Shown in pieces: positions 5,515 through 31,420 of a stretch of 31,512 bases of DNA; the first letter of the stretch is position 1; every line of letters starts with the position of its first letter. The notes under the pieces were generated by a model. It saw only the letters and a list, made by a program, of their open reading frames with translations. It was not told the DNA's origin and did not search any database. A program made the translations under genes and the position numbers. This DNA comes from a virus. The stretch spans positions 1 to 31,512 of the IMG/VR virus record IMGVR_UViG_3300037427_004519, one strand, 5' to 3'.

Positions 5515-6030
5515 TTATTTAGACTTGCGTCTTTTCTTTTTGCCCCTTTTTTTCTTACCGGGCATGTAAGGTTTTGCACCGCCAAAACCGCTTCCAGCAG
5601 CCTCAGCGGGTGTTCTTCTTTTTCGACCATGAGTGGGTGGAGATGCGCCTAGTGGAAGTGTTACGCCTCGAATATTTCCTCTAGAAATCCCAGCGCCACC
5701 TCCCATTCCAATTGCATTGACCTCTTCTACCTCATCATCTTCTTCAAGCTCGTCTTCATCAATGATTTCTTCTTTTTCCGTGAGGAGGATTCCTCTTACA
5801 AACTCTCTGAGTAATGCTTCGTCCATTGGTTCTTCTTCCTCTTCCATTTCTTTGCCCGGGCAATCAAAGAGATATTCATCACAGTCTGGATCTAGTGCAC
5901 CTGCAAGTGATCTAGGGATCGATGCAGTTGACGAAGCTGGAGCTGAAGGATCTCCGGCTGTTCCTACATAAAAAGGGCGACGGCCGCCCTGATACCTACC
6001 TGGTTTTTCATACTCTTTTAAGCTTGGCAT
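5515..6030 (-). CDS. Charge-segregated 171-residue protein of unknown function
   Basis: I do not recognise a family. The protein is strikingly partitioned. Residues about 1-55 are Pro/Gly/Ser-rich with two cysteines near DPDCDEY and FDCPG. About 60-103 is very acidic, with a short helix MDEALLREFVRGILLTE between runs of Glu/Asp. About 105-155 is Gly/Pro-rich, and the last 16 residues are almost all Lys/Arg (KKKRGKKKRRKSK). The polycationic tail suggests nucleic-acid binding, for example a DNA-condensing or head-internal protein, but this is inference. The LREFVRGILLTE helix resembles the LRRIIAEE helix of the 75-residue protein two genes upstream. The start at 6030 follows a GGGGG ribosome site. 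The gene ends directly before the ssb promoter. Confidence 0.7.
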   Translation of the reverse strand: MPSLKEYEKPGRYQGGRRPFYVGTAGDPSAPASSTASIPRSLAGALDPDCDEYLFDCPGKEMEEEEEPMDEALLREFVRGILLTEKEEIIDEDELEEDDEVEEVNAIGMGGGAGISRGNIRGVTLPLGASPPTHGRKRRTPAEAAGSGFGGAKPYMPGKKKRGKKKRRKSK

Positions 6031-6052
6031 AAAGATAAATATCCCCCAGATA

Positions 6053-6637
6053 TCAGTCTTTCAAAGCAACAGTCATTCTTATTGCATTATTCAAAGCTAT
6101 GGACAAAACAGGTTGCGAGTTTAGATAAAACTTGCTTTCATCATTTAGTGCCCCTGAACTTAAAAGGATCGTCAAATATTCTTCTCTTGATAGCTTGGCG
6201 CCTATTTGATTAAGCAACCAAACTGACCTATGCTCAACTGTCATCTTGCCAATTTTTTCATTATACTTATAAAACTGCCCCAGCTTCTCCTGATGCCACT
6301 TAGAGTCTTCTGGAACAAATAGATCATTCTCAAGATCGCCTACCTTTCCAATTGCATGAAATAACGAAACAGTAATCATTGACTTTACTGTAAGTTCTAG
6401 TTTGTGGGCTTCGTTTTCTCTTCGTAAGCTATTTAAAACTCCTAACGAATACTCGATTAGGCCTCCGGGGGTCGCCCAACCGTATTCTTCTCTACCGCTA
6501 TAGGGACATAATGCTAGGCGATCGCCTAGCGTCTCAATAAAAAAAGAATAAAGATCAGCACGATCTTTATCCTTCTGACTCAATTTATAAAAAAGCTCAA
6601 AATTACTCTGTACTTTTTCAGCGCTTATCTTACTCAA
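6053..6637 (-). CDS. HD-domain-like protein with lost metal ligands
   Basis: The layout fits the HD-phosphohydrolase-like proteins found in many T4-type phages: a PGGLIEYSLGV helix (57-67), SLFHAIGKVGDLENDLFVPE (91-110), a W-H-x-E-K-L-G segment (114-120) and EHRSVWLLNQIG (135-146). In active HD proteins the first would carry a histidine (for example PGGLxxHSL) and the second the HD pair (LFHDxGK). Here those positions are E62-Y63 and H94-A95, so the defining aspartate is missing. A late aspartate expected near 186-188 is also not seen (NNAIRMTV). The fold appears intact and the frame is unbroken, which suggests a pseudoenzyme or binding protein. Translation starts at TTG (6635-6637), supported by an ideal AAAGGAGGT site. 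Confidence 0.72.
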   Translation of the reverse strand: MSKISAEKVQSNFELFYKLSQKDKDRADLYSFFIETLGDRLALCPYSGREEYGWATPGGLIEYSLGVLNSLRRENEAHKLELTVKSMITVSLFHAIGKVGDLENDLFVPEDSKWHQEKLGQFYKYNEKIGKMTVEHRSVWLLNQIGAKLSREEYLTILLSSGALNDESKFYLNSQPVLSIALNNAIRMTVALKD

Positions 6638-6641
6638 AATT

Positions 6642-6650
6642 ACCTCCTTT
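6642..6650 (-). promoter_or_regulatory. Ribosome binding site deciding a TTG start
   Basis: Reads AAAGGAGGT on the minus strand, four bases before the TTG at 6635-6637. It is a near-perfect anti-16S match and fixes the rare start codon. It lies in the 3' half of a small inverted repeat (6640-6660) that could mask it. Confidence 0.8.
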
Positions 6651-6684
6651 AAAAAGGTAACATGTAGCTAGATAGATTTACAAG

Positions 6685-6912
6685 TTAAGAGAGGTTTTTA
6701 AGTTCTGAAAGAACAAAGCTTCTGAGTTCTTCTGACGTCATTGACTCTATTAAGTCGTCGGTATGGTCTTTATCCCAATGAACATTTTTGCCGCCCGCCC
6801 AGGCATCTTCTTGGGCTTTTACATCAGCTGTATCGTCATGTGATAGAGGATCATCTGTTGTCTTCATCTCTTCTGCAATGATTCTTCTAAGTTGTTTTCT
6901 CGTGATTTTCAT
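6685..6912 (-). CDS. Small protein with N-terminal MKITRKQLRRIIAEE helix
   Basis: 75 residues, family function unknown. The N-terminus (MKITRKQLRRIIAEEM) is a basic amphipathic helix. I recall closely similar N-termini on otherwise unrelated small proteins of marine phages (recollection, not checked). The middle is hydrophilic and rich in Asp, and the C-terminus TSEELRSFVLSELKNLS is a second LR-type helix. The IAE and LSE tripeptides fit the (L/I)-x-E pattern used by T4-type prohead proteases, so a head-internal protein with a cleavable targeting peptide is possible (inference). The ATG at 6912 has an AAAGG site 7 bases upstream. The coding frame is short, but the start context and the motif support it. 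Confidence 0.72.
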   Translation of the reverse strand: MKITRKQLRRIIAEEMKTTDDPLSHDDTADVKAQEDAWAGGKNVHWDKDHTDDLIESMTSEELRSFVLSELKNLS

Positions 6913-6974: not shown

Positions 6975-8207
6975 TTATGGAATTAAGTTAAAACTTTCAC
7001 CCATAGAATCGCTTACGTTCAAAGGAAAGTCGACATCAAACTTTTCAACTCTCGATCCAGCGCTTGCCAGATCATCAATCATAGACAGCTCATCGCTAGG
7101 AACGTCTAGTAAGAGCGCATCGTGTATTAAAAATATTGGAACTGCCCTCATTTTTGAACTTTTGATCTTTTCAATTATATTTGAAAACCCGGAGAGGCAC
7201 ACATCAACGCCTGTTGACTGAACATAGTGACTTACAAGCAAGTGATCATCAGATCTTGAAAAGTATAGCGGCCTACCGAAAAAATTAGTTATCTTGCCTT
7301 TCTGGCTAAATTCTCTTCTTAATTTATTTGCCAATGATGTAATACCAAAAATTCGTCTTATTTTGTCTAATACTTCTGAAGCATCTATCGAGTGAGGCAA
7401 GAGACCCTGTAGTTTTAAAGATGATATTCCGTAAAGTGCACCCATAACAGACATCTTCAATTTTGCCCTTTCAAGTCTTAAACCCGTTTTCTTTGCGATA
7501 TCATCGTAGATATCTCCTGACAACATCTTGCCCGAAAGTGCTAGCATGATTCGAGGTTCTAGTGAGGAGTAGTCAAACTGTACTATCTTTCCTCCTTTGA
7601 ATTTTGAACTTATTATCGATCTATGCTCTTTCTTAAGTGTTAGGATTTTAGGGCCTCGCTTTACAGTTGTACGTCCAGTTGAGCCCTGTTGATAAACAGG
7701 TGCGCTTAAATGACCAGATTCATCAGGTACAAAGCTTTTTAATGTCGAAGTAAGTGTAGGATTCCCTTCTTTTGTGATATAATGATTAAGAGCTTTCACG
7801 TCAATAAAACTATCACAAAATGATGTCAGAACCCTTCTGTTGCTTAGGAACTTTTCATAATATGTTGTATCATTTAAATGATCAAGAACGCTCTGGAGGT
7901 CACCTAGAAGGCCTGTGATATACTTTTGAAACTCATCGTGGGGTAGAACTAAATGCCATGGAACACTTAAGGCGCCCGGTTGGCCGATTTCAGTAAAAGA
8001 TCTAATGTACTTTTCTGGTGGAGACTCCTGGGGCGACATATTAAAGAGCAAACAAAGATCGTTTAAAGACTGTTCATAGTTTGGCGCATTTCCATAAAAC
8101 CATGCACCTGACGGAACACTCGAAGACCAACTATATAGTTGGTCCGATGTCTCATAAACTAGATGTTTTTCGGTTCCTAGAACATATCTTGAAATACATA
8201 ATTCCAT
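6975..8207 (-). CDS. Family A DNA polymerase, polymerase domain only
   Basis: Template-directed DNA synthesis. The 410 residues correspond to the polymerase domain of Pol I. No DEDD 3'-5' exonuclease or 5'-nuclease domain is present. Visible motifs are STGRT at 176-180 (palm/thumb TGR motif), motif A FDYSSLEPRI at 211-220 with D212 and E217, and motif B RAKLKMSVMGALYG at 247-260 with R247, K251, Y259 and G260. M255 sits where E. coli has F762. The YVQSTGVD segment is at 328-335, and motif C is LIHDALLL at 361-368 with D363. Motif C normally reads HDE, but here the glutamate is alanine (A364). The N-terminal 170 residues are only weakly family-like. The gene follows the hub-like gene after 34 bases, and no clear ribosome site precedes the ATG at 8207. 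Confidence 0.85.
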   Translation of the reverse strand: MELCISRYVLGTEKHLVYETSDQLYSWSSSVPSGAWFYGNAPNYEQSLNDLCLLFNMSPQESPPEKYIRSFTEIGQPGALSVPWHLVLPHDEFQKYITGLLGDLQSVLDHLNDTTYYEKFLSNRRVLTSFCDSFIDVKALNHYITKEGNPTLTSTLKSFVPDESGHLSAPVYQQGSTGRTTVKRGPKILTLKKEHRSIISSKFKGGKIVQFDYSSLEPRIMLALSGKMLSGDIYDDIAKKTGLRLERAKLKMSVMGALYGISSLKLQGLLPHSIDASEVLDKIRRIFGITSLANKLRREFSQKGKITNFFGRPLYFSRSDDHLLVSHYVQSTGVDVCLSGFSNIIEKIKSSKMRAVPIFLIHDALLLDVPSDELSMIDDLASAGSRVEKFDVDFPLNVSDSMGESFNLIP

Positions 8208-23382: not shown

Positions 23383-26300
23383 TTAAACCTCAGCCCCAGC
23401 ATTTGTAATTACAAAGTCAAGTGAGATGAACTCTGCAACTCTTGTTGGCTGGAGGAAGATCTTTCCTCTCAAAGTATTGTTCTCGACGTCCGCCTGAGTT
23501 GTCGTAGTCGTATCGATTACAACTTTGAATCTATCTAGCCCTTGCTGTTCTTGAATTCTAGTTAGAATAGGCTGGACAGCTGACGAGAATTTTGCAAGTG
23601 TGGATTCGCGGTTTGGTTCGAATAGTATTCGATTTCCTACGAGTCGAACTTGTCGTCTTATCTCTATGAGTAATCGTCTTACGTTTACTCTGTCTAGGGA
23701 TGATTGTGCTGCAAGTAGAGTCTTTTGTCCCCAAACAACGATTCCATCACTTCCTGGGAAGGATGTCAAGGGGTTAATATCAGACTCATAAATTGTGTCT
23801 AAGTTGGCTCTACTAAGATTAACTGCAACTGTTCTTCCCTCATTTCTGGGGTCAAGAGCACCTCTTGTAAATCCTGCAGGAGCAAACCATGGATGAGCAA
23901 CATTATCATTGAGAGAAAATGCGCCAAGAACTGCAACAGAAGGCGGAACCTGAACATTCACATTCATGAACGGATCTCTAATAGTTACATCTGGGAAATA
24001 TGCTGCTGCAAAAGATGTATCTAGTCCACGATCTTTGAAAGCTGTTACAGTATTGTTGACACCAGGATCTTGGATTGATCCCGTTATTACCTTATTGTCT
24101 ACATCTCTTTCTTCGACGTCCATTATGTAGAGAGCATCAAATCGATTTTCAACTGCCTCGATCGCTTTGTTCGTGATTTGTTCGTGTCTCACGCCCGGAA
24201 GTGCTAAGAGCTTGATATCAACATCAGACTTGGTACTCATAATGTCTAGTGCTTTATCGTAAGCTGAAACTGTTGGACCGTCGCTTTCGCCTTGATTGGT
24301 ATCATCCATTTCCCGCTTGATTGCAACGTTTTCAAATTTTGTCTTAGCTTCATCAAAGATGTTTACTCCATCAAATCCACCTTGAAGGAAGAATGTAAAC
24401 TTCGCATATTTTCTTACACTAGAATCACCCAGATCATCTGCAACGCTAAAGCCTCTTGTCTTTTTGCTTGCATTTACTTGGATTCCGCCAGCCCTTACAT
24501 ATGAAGCACTGTGCCATTGTTTGACATCTGCTAATCCAGAAGAGCCGGTTCTTACCTTGATATTCTCAAGAGTGAATAAGTTGTTCTGGAACTTATCTGA
24601 ATCTAGCTCACCGTAATATGTTGATGCGGCTTTTCCTGAGTTGTCACCAACCCATGCTGCCTGATATGTCTCTTGCCAGCCGGGTAGATAGCGAGTATAG
24701 TTTTTCATTCCCGGATTTTTCTTGGTTGACTTATTTGTCTCAAGTACGTTATCTTTCATCTCAAATTGTACACCCCAGTAGTAAGCTGAATCTGCTTGCT
24801 CTTTTGGTGGTCTTCCAACCTTGATATCTTCTCGATAAGGTATGGGAAGCGTTTGAGATCTCTTATACGTCGTAGTATAAGGAAGCGTCCCTGTATTTGA
24901 TACTGGGATATTTAGGCATTCTGTACCGGATGTTACTAAGTGATGTGGTCCGCGGAAACCTACAGGTAGGGCAATATCATTGATTATTCCATCAATAACA
25001 TCATCGGCTACTTCAATTCTAATATAGCTGGAGTTGTTTGGGTGCTCTCCTTCATAAACTAGCTTTTGAGCACCAAGTTTCTTATCAAAGTCAAACTTAG
25101 ATGACTTGTCGCCAATCACTCTAGAGATATATCTGTCTGACATTGGATTCAATGAAAGACCTCGGAATTGCTCTAAGACGACTCTATCTGTATCGGTATC
25201 ATTAAAATCACGAACCAGCAAATCGAACCTACCGTACTTTTCAGTATTAGATGTAGAATTTCTTAATCCTTCAATTGAAATCTTGAAAAGATGATTTGCA
25301 TAAACACCGTCATCTCTTGAATGAATCTTAAAGAGATTCTTAGCAACTCCACCAAACTTCTGTGACACAACCCATGGAGATCTTGGCGCACGATAACGTG
25401 TTTCAAATCCTTCATAGTTTGGTGCTTTGTTTGAAGCATTGGCATTTCTTCCGAGTGCGCCAGTTAAGATAAACGCGCAATCTTGATAAATCGGTAATCC
25501 AGCGGCAGCACCTGCACCATTCTCTTCGGTAGCACCTTGAACAAGGACGCCTGAGCCTGTTGGAACTGCCATTGCTGGGTGTATATCCCAATGAGCATAG
25601 AGTAAATGACCTGCCGCTTCAGTCTGGAGTGGGTCTGTATTGAATACATTCGAAATATAGTTACCTGCATCTGGATCAAAAGATGCTGTTAAAACCCGCT
25701 TGTACTTACCAGAACCCTTATGACCGTTAAGGAGTACAACAAATTCCTGCTTACCATTTCTAATATTAACCGATCCTGTTACGCCACCTACCGGGCCTGC
25801 GGCCGTCGCGATGGTTGTCTTGGCAGGTGTCTGATTGACTCCAGCTTTTCCGGTTTGACTTCCGGATAGCATTATACAAACACCAGAAGGTGCCAGAAGT
25901 ACTCCGCGAATAATTGGTGTAGAACCACCAGTTCCTCCGTCAAAGCCACTGGATGATCCCTGAGACCCTGTTATTGATATAAACGGAGTGGCCCCACCTA
26001 TTAGATCGTGTCCAGTAATGGAAACGTTACCTACAGGGCCACCAATTGAACTAGTAAGTTGTACGGTTGCCGATCCTGCGACATAATTTGCCGACATACG
26101 AAGTTTATTACCTGATGCAGAGCCTGTAGATGAAGCAGCTACACCATAGTCTATCGCATGTTGAATTGAGCCCCAAAGTGATCTTGCAAGTTTTGCAGCA
26201 GAGTTTACGCCACTATAGCCAATTGCCCTTGAAGTAGAAGCTTCATTTGTTTTGCTAGAATTTATAGATGCAGAGTAAACATTACCCATACCATCATGAA

Positions 26301-26844
26301 AAACCACACCAGCGTCGACTTTTGCAGAGGCATATCTATCAATAGTTAGCTGAACCATTGATGATACTGCGGTTGTTTGAACCCCGGGGGCACTTAATGC
26401 AGTACTGTGGTTTGACTCTGACATAAAGCAACCCAAGAAGTATGTTCTTCCTAAGACACCATTAGAGTTTGCGTATGGATTAGCTGCAATGCTGCCAGCT
26501 GCTTGCACTTGTTTAGCGCCTACAACGAAGCCTGCATTTGTTACTTTTCCATCGGAGGCCTTAGTCTTTCCGTTACCGGCACCAAGGACCCTTAGGTAGG
26601 TCACAGCTTTTGCATTTGTTAACCACTCAACAACAGCGAGGGGTCCAAATTTTTCTGCATCAGTTTTGCCAAACTCTGCAACAAAATCCTTAAGTGTTCC
26701 GACTACAACGGGCACGAAAGCAGGCCCCCGATTAGCGGTACCAATAATTCCTGCAGGTACTCCAGATGGTGCGACACCTGAAGGGCCTGATAGGTCAATC
26801 TCTCTTGTGCTTACGCCTGCGCTTTTAAAAGTTAGTTCTGGCAT
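23383..26844 (-). CDS. Tail sheath protein 1, with large insertion
   Basis: A contractile sheath subunit of 1153 residues, compared with 659 in T4 gp18. The N-terminus has the family pattern FKSAGVSTREIDLSG…GVPAGIIGTANRGPAFVPVV. The C-terminal 350 residues carry the conserved core: FPDVTIRDPFMN, PPSVAVLGAFSLND, AHPWFAPAGFTRGAL, INPLTSFPGSDGIVVWGQKT, and DRVNVRRLLIEIRRQVRLVG, ending LQPTRVAEFISLDFVI. Between about 157 and 300 there is a Gly/Ser/Thr-rich insertion that the neighbouring paralogue lacks. It probably forms a surface domain on the virion. The ATG at 26844 follows AGGAGAACTGGGGA. The gene is 43 bases downstream of sheath 2. Confidence 0.95.
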   Translation of the reverse strand: MPELTFKSAGVSTREIDLSGPSGVAPSGVPAGIIGTANRGPAFVPVVVGTLKDFVAEFGKTDAEKFGPLAVVEWLTNAKAVTYLRVLGAGNGKTKASDGKVTNAGFVVGAKQVQAAGSIAANPYANSNGVLGRTYFLGCFMSESNHSTALSAPGVQTTAVSSMVQLTIDRYASAKVDAGVVFHDGMGNVYSASINSSKTNEASTSRAIGYSGVNSAAKLARSLWGSIQHAIDYGVAASSTGSASGNKLRMSANYVAGSATVQLTSSIGGPVGNVSITGHDLIGGATPFISITGSQGSSSGFDGGTGGSTPIIRGVLLAPSGVCIMLSGSQTGKAGVNQTPAKTTIATAAGPVGGVTGSVNIRNGKQEFVVLLNGHKGSGKYKRVLTASFDPDAGNYISNVFNTDPLQTEAAGHLLYAHWDIHPAMAVPTGSGVLVQGATEENGAGAAAGLPIYQDCAFILTGALGRNANASNKAPNYEGFETRYRAPRSPWVVSQKFGGVAKNLFKIHSRDDGVYANHLFKISIEGLRNSTSNTEKYGRFDLLVRDFNDTDTDRVVLEQFRGLSLNPMSDRYISRVIGDKSSKFDFDKKLGAQKLVYEGEHPNNSSYIRIEVADDVIDGIINDIALPVGFRGPHHLVTSGTECLNIPVSNTGTLPYTTTYKRSQTLPIPYREDIKVGRPPKEQADSAYYWGVQFEMKDNVLETNKSTKKNPGMKNYTRYLPGWQETYQAAWVGDNSGKAASTYYGELDSDKFQNNLFTLENIKVRTGSSGLADVKQWHSASYVRAGGIQVNASKKTRGFSVADDLGDSSVRKYAKFTFFLQGGFDGVNIFDEAKTKFENVAIKREMDDTNQGESDGPTVSAYDKALDIMSTKSDVDIKLLALPGVRHEQITNKAIEAVENRFDALYIMDVEERDVDNKVITGSIQDPGVNNTVTAFKDRGLDTSFAAAYFPDVTIRDPFMNVNVQVPPSVAVLGAFSLNDNVAHPWFAPAGFTRGALDPRNEGRTVAVNLSRANLDTIYESDINPLTSFPGSDGIVVWGQKTLLAAQSSLDRVNVRRLLIEIRRQVRLVGNRILFEPNRESTLAKFSSAVQPILTRIQEQQGLDRFKVVIDTTTTTQADVENNTLRGKIFLQPTRVAEFISLDFVITNAGAEV

Positions 26845-26887: not shown

Positions 26888-29800
26888 TTAGACGAAACTT
26901 GCGCCTGTTGTATCGACAATAAAGTCAACTGCAATAAACTCAACTGTTCTTGTTGGTACAACAACAATCTTTCCGTTTAATCTATTCGCTGAAACATCCT
27001 CGTCTGTGTTATTAGTAGCGTCCATCACCACAGAGAATTTTTCAATTCCGGCTTGGGCTTGGACTAATGCCAGAAGCGGCACGACTTGTCCCACAAATCT
27101 TGAGCGTGTCTCAGGTGTGTTCTGTTCAAATACGAATCTATTCGCAATTCCAACAACGATTCGCTTAACTTCAAGCATCAGTCTTCTGACGTTTACTCTG
27201 TCAAGTGCTGACTTTGAAGCTTGTAGCGTCTTTTGACCAAAAATAACGTACCCTTCTCTTGGGAATGTTGCAATTGGATTGATCCTAGCATCGTAAAGTT
27301 CATCTCTATCGCCTGCATTGAGCCTAACATCGACATTTGAAACCATGTCAAGTGCAGCCCTGTTAAATCCAGCTGGTGCGAACCATGGATATGCAACTTT
27401 GTCATTATAAGCCAAAGCAGCGATAGCAGCAACAGAAGGCGGAACTTTTACTTGTCTTCTATTATACGGATCATCAATAAAGATATCTGGGAAATATGTT
27501 GCTGAATAATTGTTATCAACTGATCTTCCTGAGAATTCTTCAGACGTCTTTTGTACATCGGGTTTTGCAGTGGAGTCATCAAACAAACGATTTCCATCTT
27601 CATCATACTCGATCAAATCCATTAGATAGAAGAGCATGCTATAATCTCTAGCTCTTTGAGCAGCATAATCTGTAATGAATGCGTCTCTTATGCCGGGGAT
27701 TGCAAGGATATTTGTATTTACAGTCATTTCATCTGTCATTATTTTAACAGCAGTCCTGTAACTTGCAACAGCATTATTATCTTTACCTGTTCCACCTACA
27801 TTCTTAGCATTTCCGCTTGTATCAACAAGACCAGGAGAGACGAAGCTTCCGTTGGCGCCACCATTTGTATCGGTTGAAGCAGATCGATCATTCATCTTCT
27901 TGGCATTTACATCAAGAATGTTTAGACCGTCCCATCCACCGTAGAAGAATGTTGAGAATTTTGCCCACCCTGAGAATCTATTGAAGTAAACGGACGACGT
28001 TAGATTTACTAAAGTTCCTAGCGTTACGCGTTGTTTACTGGCAGAATCTTTGATAAGATAGTTACTCGAATCTGGCGCTCCATCTCTAAGATAAGCAGCG
28101 TCTCTCATGTGTTGACCAGCTGATGCTGTAAAGTTTGATACGAGGACCGTGGTTACCTTCTGTGATGCTCCTACGAAGTTTCCGAATGCTACCTTAGCTA
28201 GTGTAAACTTATTGTCACAGAATTTATCTGCGGATGTTCCTGTAACAAAAAGATCTAGCTTGTTGACTCCCATAAACTTGGTATAGTTTTCAATAAGTTC
28301 ATTTCTCTTTGAACCGTTATTGGGTTTGAAAGCTGCGTTAGCGATTGATCCAGTTTCTGGATTTCTTTCAAACTTAACACCCCAATAAAACTTAGAATCG
28401 GCCACTTCATTCTTCCCTGGTTTCCCTGGGACACCGTCATCATTTGTATTGTCGTATTGACCTTTTGTTACCTTGAATCTGAATGGTATTGGAGGGAGGA
28501 TAGAACCCGACAGGCCACATTGGGCTGTGTGAGCTAATCTTCGCTTCTGCGTTGCTGGCGGACCTGCTTTTGCGGTTCCGTATGATCCCAAAGCTGCTGA
28601 TCGATCAGTAAGTGTATCAGAAGTCTTTAACAACTCCATGCCTCGGAACCCGAACGGTAGAGCTGATGCCGGTACTTCACCTTCTTCAACAGCATTGTTC
28701 ATGACGACTCTTACAGAAGTTGATTTATTTGGATATTTTCCATCAACAATAATTCTTCTTTCTTCTTCATCTTCCGCATCAAAGTTGTAGTACGCCTTTA
28801 TGTCACCAATAACAGCTGCTACATATCTCTCAGATTTTGGATTCAAGTTACAATTTGGATAGCTCTCAATTACTTGGGGAGCTGCGTCTGTATCACTAAA
28901 GCTTCTTATTTCTACCGTGAATGATCCGTAAAGATTTCTAGGATCATCTGATTTTCTAAGATTCCTGATTGAGACTTTGAACTTATTATTTCCCCATGCA
29001 CCGTCGGAAATTGTTTCGAAGCGGAAAAGATCATATTCGGTTTCACCAAATGGCTGCGAAATAATAGCAGGGGTTTTTGGCGTCGTGAATCTGGTATCAA
29101 ATCTTCCGTATAAGTCTCTCATCGCTGTTGATGTGAGGCCACCGTCTGAGGACGTCTTTGCTGAACCTGATAGGATACCTACGTCATTTGCGCCGCCTGC
29201 TACGTTTGCGATTTCTGGATCGACTGGAAAGTGAGCGTAGAGTAAGTGCTGTTCTTTTAAGAATAGCGATGGATCAGTATTGAGAATATTTGCAATATAG
29301 AACGGTGAGGATGGATTCAAAGAAGCTGAAAGAATTTTAATACCCTTTCTACTGTCATCCGCTGCAAAGTCAGAGCTGTCAGATGAAGAAAGGACGATCT
29401 TAAACAGTCCTCTGTTATCTCCAGTTCTAATAATCCTTGCTGTATCGTTCAATGTTGCAAACGATCCCTTTGCAGGGGTTGCCTGGCCGGAACCGTCGAG
29501 AACCATCACTCTTGTTCCGGAGGGGGTCATGATCATTCCGCGAATCAGATTTACATACTCTGGTTCCGTATAGTTACCGGTATCAAATGATCCGTTATCA
29601 GTAAACATTGGACATGTGACAGACTCACTGGCTGAAACATAATGTCTGGCTGCGATAAACTGAACCGCGCCTTGATGTCTACCATCGATACTAGAATTTG
29701 ATGACTTTGAAGAAAGGGCAAATCCTGCATTTTTAACAGTACCCCTCGACTTTGTGGTATTCATATCATCAAGTGAATCATTGGCGCCCGCGCCAAGTAC

Positions 29801-30052
29801 TCTTAAATAAGTTAAAGAATTTCTATGCTTTAAAAATTCTCTTACGGCGTATGGACCGAATTTCTCCGGGTCTACACCACCAAATCTTGTTCTAAAGTCC
29901 TCAAATGTCCCTATTGTGACAGGAACAAATGCTGGTCCTTTTTCAGAAGTACCGATGACACCTGCAGGGGTTCCAGTTGGACCCTGGACTACGGGTGCGA
30001 CATCAATTTCTCTCTCAAAAAAACCAGGTGAACGAAAAGTTTGCTCAGCCAT
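26888..30052 (-). CDS. Tail sheath protein 2 (tandem paralogue)
   Basis: A second sheath subunit of 1054 residues. The N-terminus (FFEREIDVAP…TPAGVIGTSEKGPAFVPVTI) and the C-terminal core (FPDIFIDDPYNR, PPSVAAIAALAYND, AYPWFAPAGFNRAALD, INPIATFPREGYVIFGQKT, DRVNVRRLMLEVKRIVVGIA, VPTRTVEFIAVDFIVD) follow sheath 1 closely. Middle domains are more divergent, and it lacks the 157-300 insertion of sheath 1. Two adjacent full-length copies imply either a mixed sheath or different sheath zones (inference). Both copies keep the polymerisation core, so neither looks decayed. The ATG at 30052 has CGAGGAG upstream. Confidence 0.95.
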   Translation of the reverse strand: MAEQTFRSPGFFEREIDVAPVVQGPTGTPAGVIGTSEKGPAFVPVTIGTFEDFRTRFGGVDPEKFGPYAVREFLKHRNSLTYLRVLGAGANDSLDDMNTTKSRGTVKNAGFALSSKSSNSSIDGRHQGAVQFIAARHYVSASESVTCPMFTDNGSFDTGNYTEPEYVNLIRGMIMTPSGTRVMVLDGSGQATPAKGSFATLNDTARIIRTGDNRGLFKIVLSSSDSSDFAADDSRKGIKILSASLNPSSPFYIANILNTDPSLFLKEQHLLYAHFPVDPEIANVAGGANDVGILSGSAKTSSDGGLTSTAMRDLYGRFDTRFTTPKTPAIISQPFGETEYDLFRFETISDGAWGNNKFKVSIRNLRKSDDPRNLYGSFTVEIRSFSDTDAAPQVIESYPNCNLNPKSERYVAAVIGDIKAYYNFDAEDEEERRIIVDGKYPNKSTSVRVVMNNAVEEGEVPASALPFGFRGMELLKTSDTLTDRSAALGSYGTAKAGPPATQKRRLAHTAQCGLSGSILPPIPFRFKVTKGQYDNTNDDGVPGKPGKNEVADSKFYWGVKFERNPETGSIANAAFKPNNGSKRNELIENYTKFMGVNKLDLFVTGTSADKFCDNKFTLAKVAFGNFVGASQKVTTVLVSNFTASAGQHMRDAAYLRDGAPDSSNYLIKDSASKQRVTLGTLVNLTSSVYFNRFSGWAKFSTFFYGGWDGLNILDVNAKKMNDRSASTDTNGGANGSFVSPGLVDTSGNAKNVGGTGKDNNAVASYRTAVKIMTDEMTVNTNILAIPGIRDAFITDYAAQRARDYSMLFYLMDLIEYDEDGNRLFDDSTAKPDVQKTSEEFSGRSVDNNYSATYFPDIFIDDPYNRRQVKVPPSVAAIAALAYNDKVAYPWFAPAGFNRAALDMVSNVDVRLNAGDRDELYDARINPIATFPREGYVIFGQKTLQASKSALDRVNVRRLMLEVKRIVVGIANRFVFEQNTPETRSRFVGQVVPLLALVQAQAGIEKFSVVMDATNNTDEDVSANRLNGKIVVVPTRTVEFIAVDFIVDTTGASFV

Positions 30053-30077
30053 TACTGTATACTCCTCGAGTAGTTAC

Positions 30078-30083
30078 ATTATA
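30078..30083 (-). promoter_or_regulatory. Candidate promoter -10 box before sheath 2
   Basis: TATAAT followed by GTAAC on the minus strand, 26 bases before the sheath 2 ATG. No -35 box is evident. The downstream bases GTA match the ssb promoter context. The rest of the 108-base gap (30053-30160) shows only the ribosome site and no gene or hairpin that I can support. Confidence 0.3.
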
Positions 30084-30160
30084 AATATTCACGAACAGAT
30101 CAAAATACCCAACACCATTGCTGTTAGATGAAATCAAGTTCAATTCTTTGTTTTTAGTTA

Positions 30161-31420
30161 TCATTTTTCTTTCTCTGCACTAACATTTAAATCCGCAAAA
30201 CTTTCCATTGCCTGACTTGACATTACCGTCTCACCAGTCCTGGAGTCGGATGATAAGACAGGTAGATACTGAGATTTGTCTTGTCCGGTGAACGGATCTT
30301 TGACATATGTTAGTACCTGTCGGGTTTCGCGGCCTCTCCAATTTTTTTCTCGACCGTGCTTGTCTAAGATTGAAACTTCCCCCAAAAGAAAATCGTCAAG
30401 ATCAAAAGAGCCCATAGGCGATGAAGCTTCAGTTCCACCTTTTACTTGCGATTTTTGACTTTGCATTCCGAAGTGAACAGTTGGGGCAGAATAATAGCTC
30501 CTCAAGGGGCTTCCCTTGCCTTCCGGATCATTTGCTACTAAATATCCGTCGACCACTACTGAAAAGGAGTATCTTATTACCCTTTCTTGATCAGTAAAGT
30601 CATCAAAATTATTTCCATCATTGAAGTCATCTTGAATGTATGCAACAAACCAATATCCGTCTTCTGTCGATATTTTAAAATTATTTCCAGGAGCGTGGTA
30701 TGCAACCATCATTTGCTCAATCATAGAATTCATATGTGTTGAATATTGAGCCCAAAATGTTACTTCGTAAGTCATTCGAACAAATTTTGGAAATGGAATT
30801 GTAATTACTTCAAATATATTGTCCCCCAAATCTGTTGCTAAGCTTGGATTGCTAGGACCTGACTTGAACTGTCTATTCCCTACTGTCCCTGGCTTAACTG
30901 CCTTTTGAGGTTCATCTTTATCAATGATATGATTGTCAGATGAAATATTGTCTTGATTTGATAGTTTTAATTTGTTTTGAATTTTTTGATAATTTCTATC
31001 TTTATCAGAGAGACGCTTCTTAACAACCATGTCTCCAGTATCTCGGCCGCGGCCGGCTTGAGATATTGACTGACTTAATCCTGTTCGTCTGATAGAGATC
31101 AAGGGCAAGATGATCGCTCCGTTAGCGTCCCTTATCGGCTTTTGTCGTTTGACCAAGGCGAATCTTTCACCTGTTGCAAAAACAACGGGCACTGGTGCTT
31201 GCTGCTCGCGGTGAGTAATTCTTACTTGCAAAGTCTTGTCATAAAAATCAAATAGTGCCTTATCTACCTGTTCTAAACCGCAAGCTGGGATATGGAGACC
31301 TTCTGTGATATTGTCACCATCATATCCGGTGGGCAACCTGTGAGCACCATCAACCATATCCCTATTTGCATAGGTTTGTGAAGTTGTTTCGCCCTCTGTT
31401 AATCTAGTAGTATCAGACAT
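30161..31420 (-). CDS. Tail completion / sheath stabiliser candidate (gp15-like position)
   Basis: 419 residues. The segment ANGAIILPLISIRRTGLSQS (about 105-124), and later FPKFVRMTYEVTFWAQYSTH with MNSMIEQMMVAYHAPGNNFK (about 210-248), show a pattern I associate with T4-type tail terminator proteins such as gp15. Position directly before the sheath genes agrees, but the match is from memory and modest. Residues about 130-180 are charged and probably disordered, and the C-terminal 120 residues look extended. Two starts are possible. GTG at 31429 overlaps the previous stop. ATG at 31420 is preferred because GAGTGAGAG lies just upstream. Alternatives are another neck or baseplate-associated structural protein. 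Confidence 0.6.
   Translation of the reverse strand: MSDTTRLTEGETTSQTYANRDMVDGAHRLPTGYDGDNITEGLHIPACGLEQVDKALFDFYDKTLQVRITHREQQAPVPVVFATGERFALVKRQKPIRDANGAIILPLISIRRTGLSQSISQAGRGRDTGDMVVKKRLSDKDRNYQKIQNKLKLSNQDNISSDNHIIDKDEPQKAVKPGTVGNRQFKSGPSNPSLATDLGDNIFEVITIPFPKFVRMTYEVTFWAQYSTHMNSMIEQMMVAYHAPGNNFKISTEDGYWFVAYIQDDFNDGNNFDDFTDQERVIRYSFSVVVDGYLVANDPEGKGSPLRSYYSAPTVHFGMQSQKSQVKGGTEASSPMGSFDLDDFLLGEVSILDKHGREKNWRGRETRQVLTYVKDPFTGQDKSQYLPVLSSDSRTGETVMSSQAMESFADLNVSAEKEK

Follow-up and report, generated by a model that had tools for sequence, protein, structure and literature searches.

A recurrent N-terminal leader in uncultured T4-like phages is a probable capsid-targeting sequence cut by a gp21-type protease

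Many otherwise unrelated proteins of uncultured T4-like phages, about 20 to 30 in each phage genome, begin with the same short N-terminal leader of 14 to 22 residues, whose end is a gp21-type (L/I)-x-E site with Glu rather than Asp. Judging from sequence comparison, we put at roughly three in four the probability that this leader is a capsid-targeting sequence removed by protease, T4-like in its working and representing a new sequence class and scale. The stretch of DNA analysed here (31,512 nucleotides, 31.5 kb; hereafter the window) is a fragment of an uncultured T4-like contractile-tailed phage. Its genes include a helicase, an exonuclease, UvsX, SSB, a polymerase piece, a tape measure, two sheath genes and a tube gene, and its tail genes are matched by T4 gp18 and gp19. 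Scanning the window proteins against Pfam and PHROG yielded no informative result.

Distribution and anatomy of the leader

The sequence-only reading drew attention to two small proteins of the window, of 75 and 171 residues, as carrying LR-type helices that end in (L/I)-x-E. Both open reading frames are found on the minus strand at the place given, with exactly the peptides quoted. In the 75-residue protein (6685..6912, minus strand), the leader occupies residues 1-14, MKITRKQLRRIIAE (6871..6912, minus strand), and ahead of a mature part belonging to a small family it ends in the gp21-type site I-A-E14; the cut is predicted after Glu14 (I-A-E↓E, where the arrow marks the scissile bond) on the basis of the profile, the logo and the site statistics given below. 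Searching IMG/VR with this protein returned 19 loci, which are clusters of small genes whose products all start with MKIT[RK]xQL[RK]xIIxE[EASQ] and diverge completely afterwards. Among 475 non-redundant carriers, mostly uncharacterized proteins of uncultured T4-like phages, the leader motif is M-K-I-T-[KR]-x-Q-L-[KR]-x-I-I-x-E, often extended to L-L-x-E22. Information is high at residues 1-16 and weaker at L19, L20 and E22; from residue 23 it falls to about zero, so that residue 22 is the last conserved position. No pattern ever included positions 15-22, whereas the pattern used for collection partly forced positions 1-14. For this reason the count was repeated on leaders that the collecting pattern had missed and that were picked by residues 1-12 alone; of these 209, 191 have Glu at residue 14.

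We examined six records, 185-293 kb in size, for leader genes. Naive open reading frame calling with a loose pattern gave 14-23 leader genes per record, and a profile applied to the first 60 residues gave 19-31 leaders per genome, the profile having been trained only on proteins from contigs other than those scanned. At a score of 14 the six whole genomes yielded 147 profile matches, whereas shuffled proteomes yielded none; 127 of the matches coincide with a Met codon and another 5 with GTG. The recurrence proposed by the sequence-only reading is thus far above chance for the N-terminal helix, MKITRKQLRRIIAEE; the C-terminal helix of the 75-residue protein, considered below, fares differently. 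A strict DNA pattern of the leader occurs in at least 120 stretches in IMG/VR but the 257 Gb of GTDB genomes have just 10, each of them in a metagenome-assembled contig. Two of these contigs, from bacterial metagenome-assembled genomes, contain many leader copies, NHDW01000006 (L231/L236/L238; 306 kb) and PBIO01000025 (L232/L235; 101 kb), and both are probably giant phage contigs that were binned into bacterial genomes. In a tblastn search of the isolate phage collection with the leader no isolate phage was matched, but one uncultured 484-kb phage was. There is no profile match at a score of 6 in the examined parts of Flavobacterium phage immuto (about 150 of 160 kb) or Microcystis phage Mel-JY01 (50 kb), and no description of the leader was found in the open-access journal literature searched.

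Among the longest carriers are two consecutive paralogues of 764 and 763 residues (G008:26415-28709 and 28709-31000), both of which bear the leader in the form MKITK[RK]RLRKIL-x-ESLLLE. A few open reading frames, among them G006 ORF 367 and G005 ORF 147, have a second leader-like stretch deep inside (for example at residue 188 or 173) that has no start codon. Such inner stretches could reflect cleavage within the protein or the fusion of two genes. The T4-type late promoter TATAAATA is not enriched upstream of leader genes, and hence provides no evidence on their timing.

Cleavage sites, the prohead protease and the head gene cluster

A second (L/I)-x-E is present at residues 18-30 in 248 of 447 proteins, compared with 49, 68 and 69 in the next three intervals of equal length. 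No comparable peak at residues 18-30 is seen for (L/I)-x-D, (V/M/F)-x-E or A/G/S-x-E. Presence of the second site depends on the residue that follows Glu14. When residue 15 is Glu, a second site at 20-24 is found in 172 of 291 leaders (59%), as against 8 of 113 (7%) when one of the residues Ala, Ser, Thr and Gly stands there. This see-saw has an odds ratio of about 43 after stratification by contig, which is strong but not proof, since the same table would result if two leader subtypes were each inherited as a unit. The simplest reading of these sequence counts is that one good cleavage site is needed, either at 14 or near 22.

The sequence-only reading invoked a gp21-type prohead protease, and the window breaks off inside a neck gene, with the head genes outside its 31.5 kb. 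We reached the head cluster of the nearest relatives (L397-L399) by way of relatives of the window neck gene (97% and 67% identity), then the adjoining capsid gene and the next head gene. PF03420, the gp21 family, is present in all three of these clusters, which bears out the presence of the protease in the lineage. The cluster comprises, in order, the portal, a 279-residue protein, the gp21-type protease, a small gene, a 151-residue gene, further genes, the scaffold and a gp23-type capsid protein; L399 extends to the same neck gene in which the window ends. T4 gp21 aligns with this protease at the motifs G-E-x-x-H-P and G-x-S-S-R-G. More widely, every one of the six large records contains PF03420, as do the seven additional leader records of at least 145 kb. 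This co-occurrence (13 of 13) is consistent with the proposed role of the protease but is confounded by kinship, since every leader phage belongs to the T4-like group. Sampling IMG/VR with random 15-mers, to obtain a base rate of PF03420 in large contigs, gave a single contig above 145 kb, too small a number to serve as one.

The head cluster itself carries the leader. The 151-residue gene near the protease begins MAKVTKRVLKGIVKECLVEILAEG, and in the six large genomes two small families adjoining the protease have leader-like N-termini, which follow one additional Ala or a few extra N-terminal residues. In G006, a genome that did not contribute to profile training, these N-termini are AKITKRMLKGIVKECLVEILSEG, with a profile score of 15.4, and RKITPNFLKRIVVEEARKLQAE, with 17.9; other members score lower. 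In addition, where T4 gp23 has its cleavage site FLTE↓A, the aligned capsid proteins read L-[RK]-E↓[AST], and as this matches the gp23 site, the protease of the leader phages most likely cuts after L-x-E.

Several further features of these head clusters were recorded. Two consecutive, nearly identical major capsid protein genes are located at G005:176269-178167 and 178261-180150. The window lineage has a small basic head-cluster protein (L397 8626-8886; L396 22183-22410) that by eye resembles ribosomal protein S21, and an annotated S21 gene is found in the corresponding cluster of Mel-JY01. A 235-residue protein adjoining the capsid gene of the window lineage (L244 1277-1984) is sulfotransferase-like by eye.

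Among the closest known systems is that of T4, in which gp21 removes the capsid-targeting sequences (CTS) of IPI, IPII and IPIII (MKTYQEFIAE↓A) and the propeptide of gp24 (MAKINELLRE↓S). The IPIII leader of 10 residues is enough for entry into the head. Targeting involves its residues 4 and 7, processing its residues 8 and 10, and with Asp at residue 10 the protein still enters but is no longer processed (PMC9026906). Like the leader, the T4 sequences are N-terminal, 10-22 residues long and end in (L/I)-x-E, their carriers otherwise share nothing, and a gp21-family protease is present in the same lineage. The N-termini in the T4 record are MKTYQEFIAEA for IPIII, MAKINELLRES for gp24 and MLKEQLIAEA for gp22. 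IPIII and gp24 also show an h-x-x-h-h-x-E arrangement, Y4, F7, I8 and E10 of IPIII and I4, L7, L8 and E10 of gp24 having the spacing of L8, I11, I12 and E14 of the leader; this is a match of spacing only and would not by itself prove homology. The leader differs from the T4 CTS in being longer, in its strict I-T-x-x-Q-L start and frequent second site, in being on about 20-30 carriers per genome rather than a handful, and in its presence on head-cluster genes. There is no significant pairwise similarity between the two. In phages phiKZ and SPN3US many internal head proteins lose N-terminal propeptides to a gp21-related protease (PMC5694885, PMC10052503), which is what is proposed for the leader, but the sites of these S80 proteases are A-x-E or S/A/G-x-E with a small P3 residue, most of the propeptides exceed 100 residues and they have no common short leader. 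The leader does not show this small P3 residue: (L/I)-x-E and not A/G/S-x-E is enriched in the leader region. In phage P1 the N-terminal 30 residues of DarB direct a reporter into the head (PMC9024508); unlike the leader proteins, the Dar proteins share no consensus.

The small proteins of the window

The leader of the 75-residue protein reads MKITRKQLRRIIAE↓E, with Glu at P1' and no second (L/I)-x-E site. Given that I-A-E14↓E15 is its only leader site, cutting there may be slow, and by the statistics above the window copy is not the ideal substrate. An AF2 model of the protein (mean pLDDT 64) has a helix at residues 5-18 with modest confidence, and in view of its low confidence the model was used for the N-terminal helix alone. 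The mature part contains the family core D-x-x-D-V-x-x-x-E-D-A-W-A-G-G-x-N. At the C-terminus, EELRSFVLSEL (residues 61-71; 6700..6732, minus strand) is retained in two close relatives. The sequence-only reading took this as a further signal of the same kind, which the data do not support: in leader proteins such patterns are no more frequent at the C-terminus (0.36 per 1000 residues) than in the interior (0.58), and the resemblance is not shown to exceed chance. A C-terminal cut is conceivable by analogy, because T4 Alt is cleaved at both ends (PMC5694885).

Next to this gene, in the slot polymerase-(75 aa)-194 aa-171 aa-SSB-UvsX-exonuclease-helicase, are a gene for a 194-residue protein (6053..6637, minus strand), kept in several relatives and without the leader, and that of the 171-residue protein (5515..6030, minus strand). 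Relatives of the latter are located in the same polymerase-SSB slot of G001, G002, G004, G005, G006 and G014. Orthologues of 90-114 residues start with a helix, behind which a G-x-T-x-P-L-G module separates an acidic stretch from a basic tail; the corresponding GVTLPLG module of the window protein (residues 122-128; 5647..5667, minus strand) is diagnostic of the family and likewise stands between an acidic stretch and a basic tail. The helix of the orthologues ends in hydrophobic-x-E and is comparable to ALLREFVRGILLTE of the window protein (residues 72-85; 5776..5817, minus strand). This helix, also singled out by the sequence-only reading, is real, with a dN/dS of about 0.01 over residues 69-90 (few sites) that indicates strong purifying selection, but it is internal here and N-terminal in the shorter orthologues. 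The 68-residue extension in front of it in the window, G001 and G002 is clearly coding (dN/dS 0.06-0.08). A Met directly before the helix, Met69, is kept in all three, and the codons of the purine-rich stretch GAAGAGGAAGAAGAA ahead of it (5824..5844, minus strand) are identical in them, whereas synonymous sites elsewhere differ by about 70%. This stretch is a possible ribosome site for an internal start at Met69, and a 103-residue product beginning MDEALLREFVRGILLTE is plausible. From these comparisons the helix looks like the N-terminal leader of the shorter orthologues or of an internally started product.

Three observations concern neighbouring genes and a related phage. The family A DNA polymerase of the window (6975-8207) is a 410-residue C-terminal piece, and two separate family A polymerase genes are listed for phage immuto. 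Two tail sheath genes that differ in sequence follow one another in the window (23383-26844 and 26888-30052), and such a consecutive pair is also present in five of six large relatives checked. Phage immuto has two proteins (L394 1803-2318; L393 about 8640) with a different leader, MENFDLKKFLVEN[RK]LT-x-NSK, and hydrophobic-x-E sites, one of them encoded directly before the SSB gene in the slot of the window 171-residue gene; this may be immuto's own targeting leader.

Alternative explanations, mechanism and cargo

The alternative that survives best, although we regard it as unlikely, is that the leader is never removed and instead acts as a helix that docks onto some partner of phage or host origin, such as the prohead core, RNA polymerase or a membrane; the (L/I)-x-E motifs would then simply be helix ends. 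The helix predicted at residues 5-18 would agree with this, as would the Glu15 leaders that lack a second site, and cleavage itself is a prediction. Against it, Asp hardly ever takes the place of Glu14, the preference for Glu over Asp at the second site, and the way this site varies with residue 15, fit the specificity of a protease better than a helix cap, and the protease is present in every large leader record. It is improbable that some as yet unrecognized sorting machine uses the leader to send proteins to another destination, such as the tail, a membrane or a compartment within the cell: what the sequence directly shows is just a sorting signal on unrelated cargo, yet the same leader is on head-cluster genes beside the protease, and (L/I)-x-E matches the head protease and the site in the major capsid protein. 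Still less probable is conservation at the level of DNA or RNA, as a recombination cassette, a translation enhancer or a regulatory element at gene starts. Synonymous codon agreement is somewhat raised (0.48-0.59 versus 0.39-0.45 predicted from codon usage), but synonymous sites vary widely while the amino acids stay constant, which indicates selection on the peptide, and the head-cluster families carry the leader downstream of the N-terminal additions described above; we therefore reject a nucleotide-level element. Chance resemblance of short helices of LR-x-h-h type fits the C-terminal helix of the 75-residue protein, but for the N-terminal leader it is refuted by the profile counts against shuffled proteomes and runs counter to the contrast between IMG/VR and GTDB.

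The favoured explanation is thus the prohead leader cut at (L/I)-x-E, as the sequence-only reading proposed; sharing of the leader, Glu14, the residue-15 see-saw, co-occurrence with the protease, the head-cluster leaders, the capsid protein site and the T4 mutational map all speak for it, whereas its extension to the C-terminal helix is not supported and the helix of the 171-residue protein is reinterpreted as described above. Under such a scheme the first 14 residues of the 75-residue protein, and up to 22 in many relatives, would form a transferable capsid-targeting leader. It would fold as a capped amphipathic helix, in which I3-T4-x-x-Q7-L8 may serve as hydrophobic staple and capping box, and would dock the protein on the prohead core. 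The gp21-type protease would then cut after (L/I)-x-E, at Glu14 if residue 15 is small and otherwise preferably near Glu22, freeing the mature protein inside the head for injection with the DNA. For the 171-residue protein, the LREFVRGILLTE helix would give access to this pathway.

A small number of internal proteins are injected by T4 and inhibit restriction enzymes of the host; Ip1-3 have nothing but their leader in common and act on different type IV restriction enzymes (PMC12373910). By analogy, blocking of host defences is a likely end use, and defence inhibition is a reasonable guess for many leader proteins. In batch domain scans of 114 longer carriers, about a dozen matched assorted unrelated domains, including L,D-transpeptidase, P-loop kinase, HD hydrolase, RNase_T and EF hand, and such scattered cargo fits a general loading tag. 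Compared with the T4 CTS, the strict consensus and the scale of the leader are notable. We lean slightly toward the view that in uncultured giant T4-like phages the CTS has become a general loading tag, with one leader, one pathway and one protease delivering some 20-30 small proteins per virion for injection. If so, the tag alone would be enough to predict that hundreds of proteins of unknown fold are injected, probably to counter host defences, and the leader-bearing head-cluster proteins would be parts of the core beside which the carriers dock. How internal proteins are chosen for the head would become directly testable by the combination of a tag, a protease and a head-gene set. With the leader as a guide, many genes now listed as hypothetical could be predicted to encode injected proteins, and the cargo that giant marine phages release as infection begins could be revealed.
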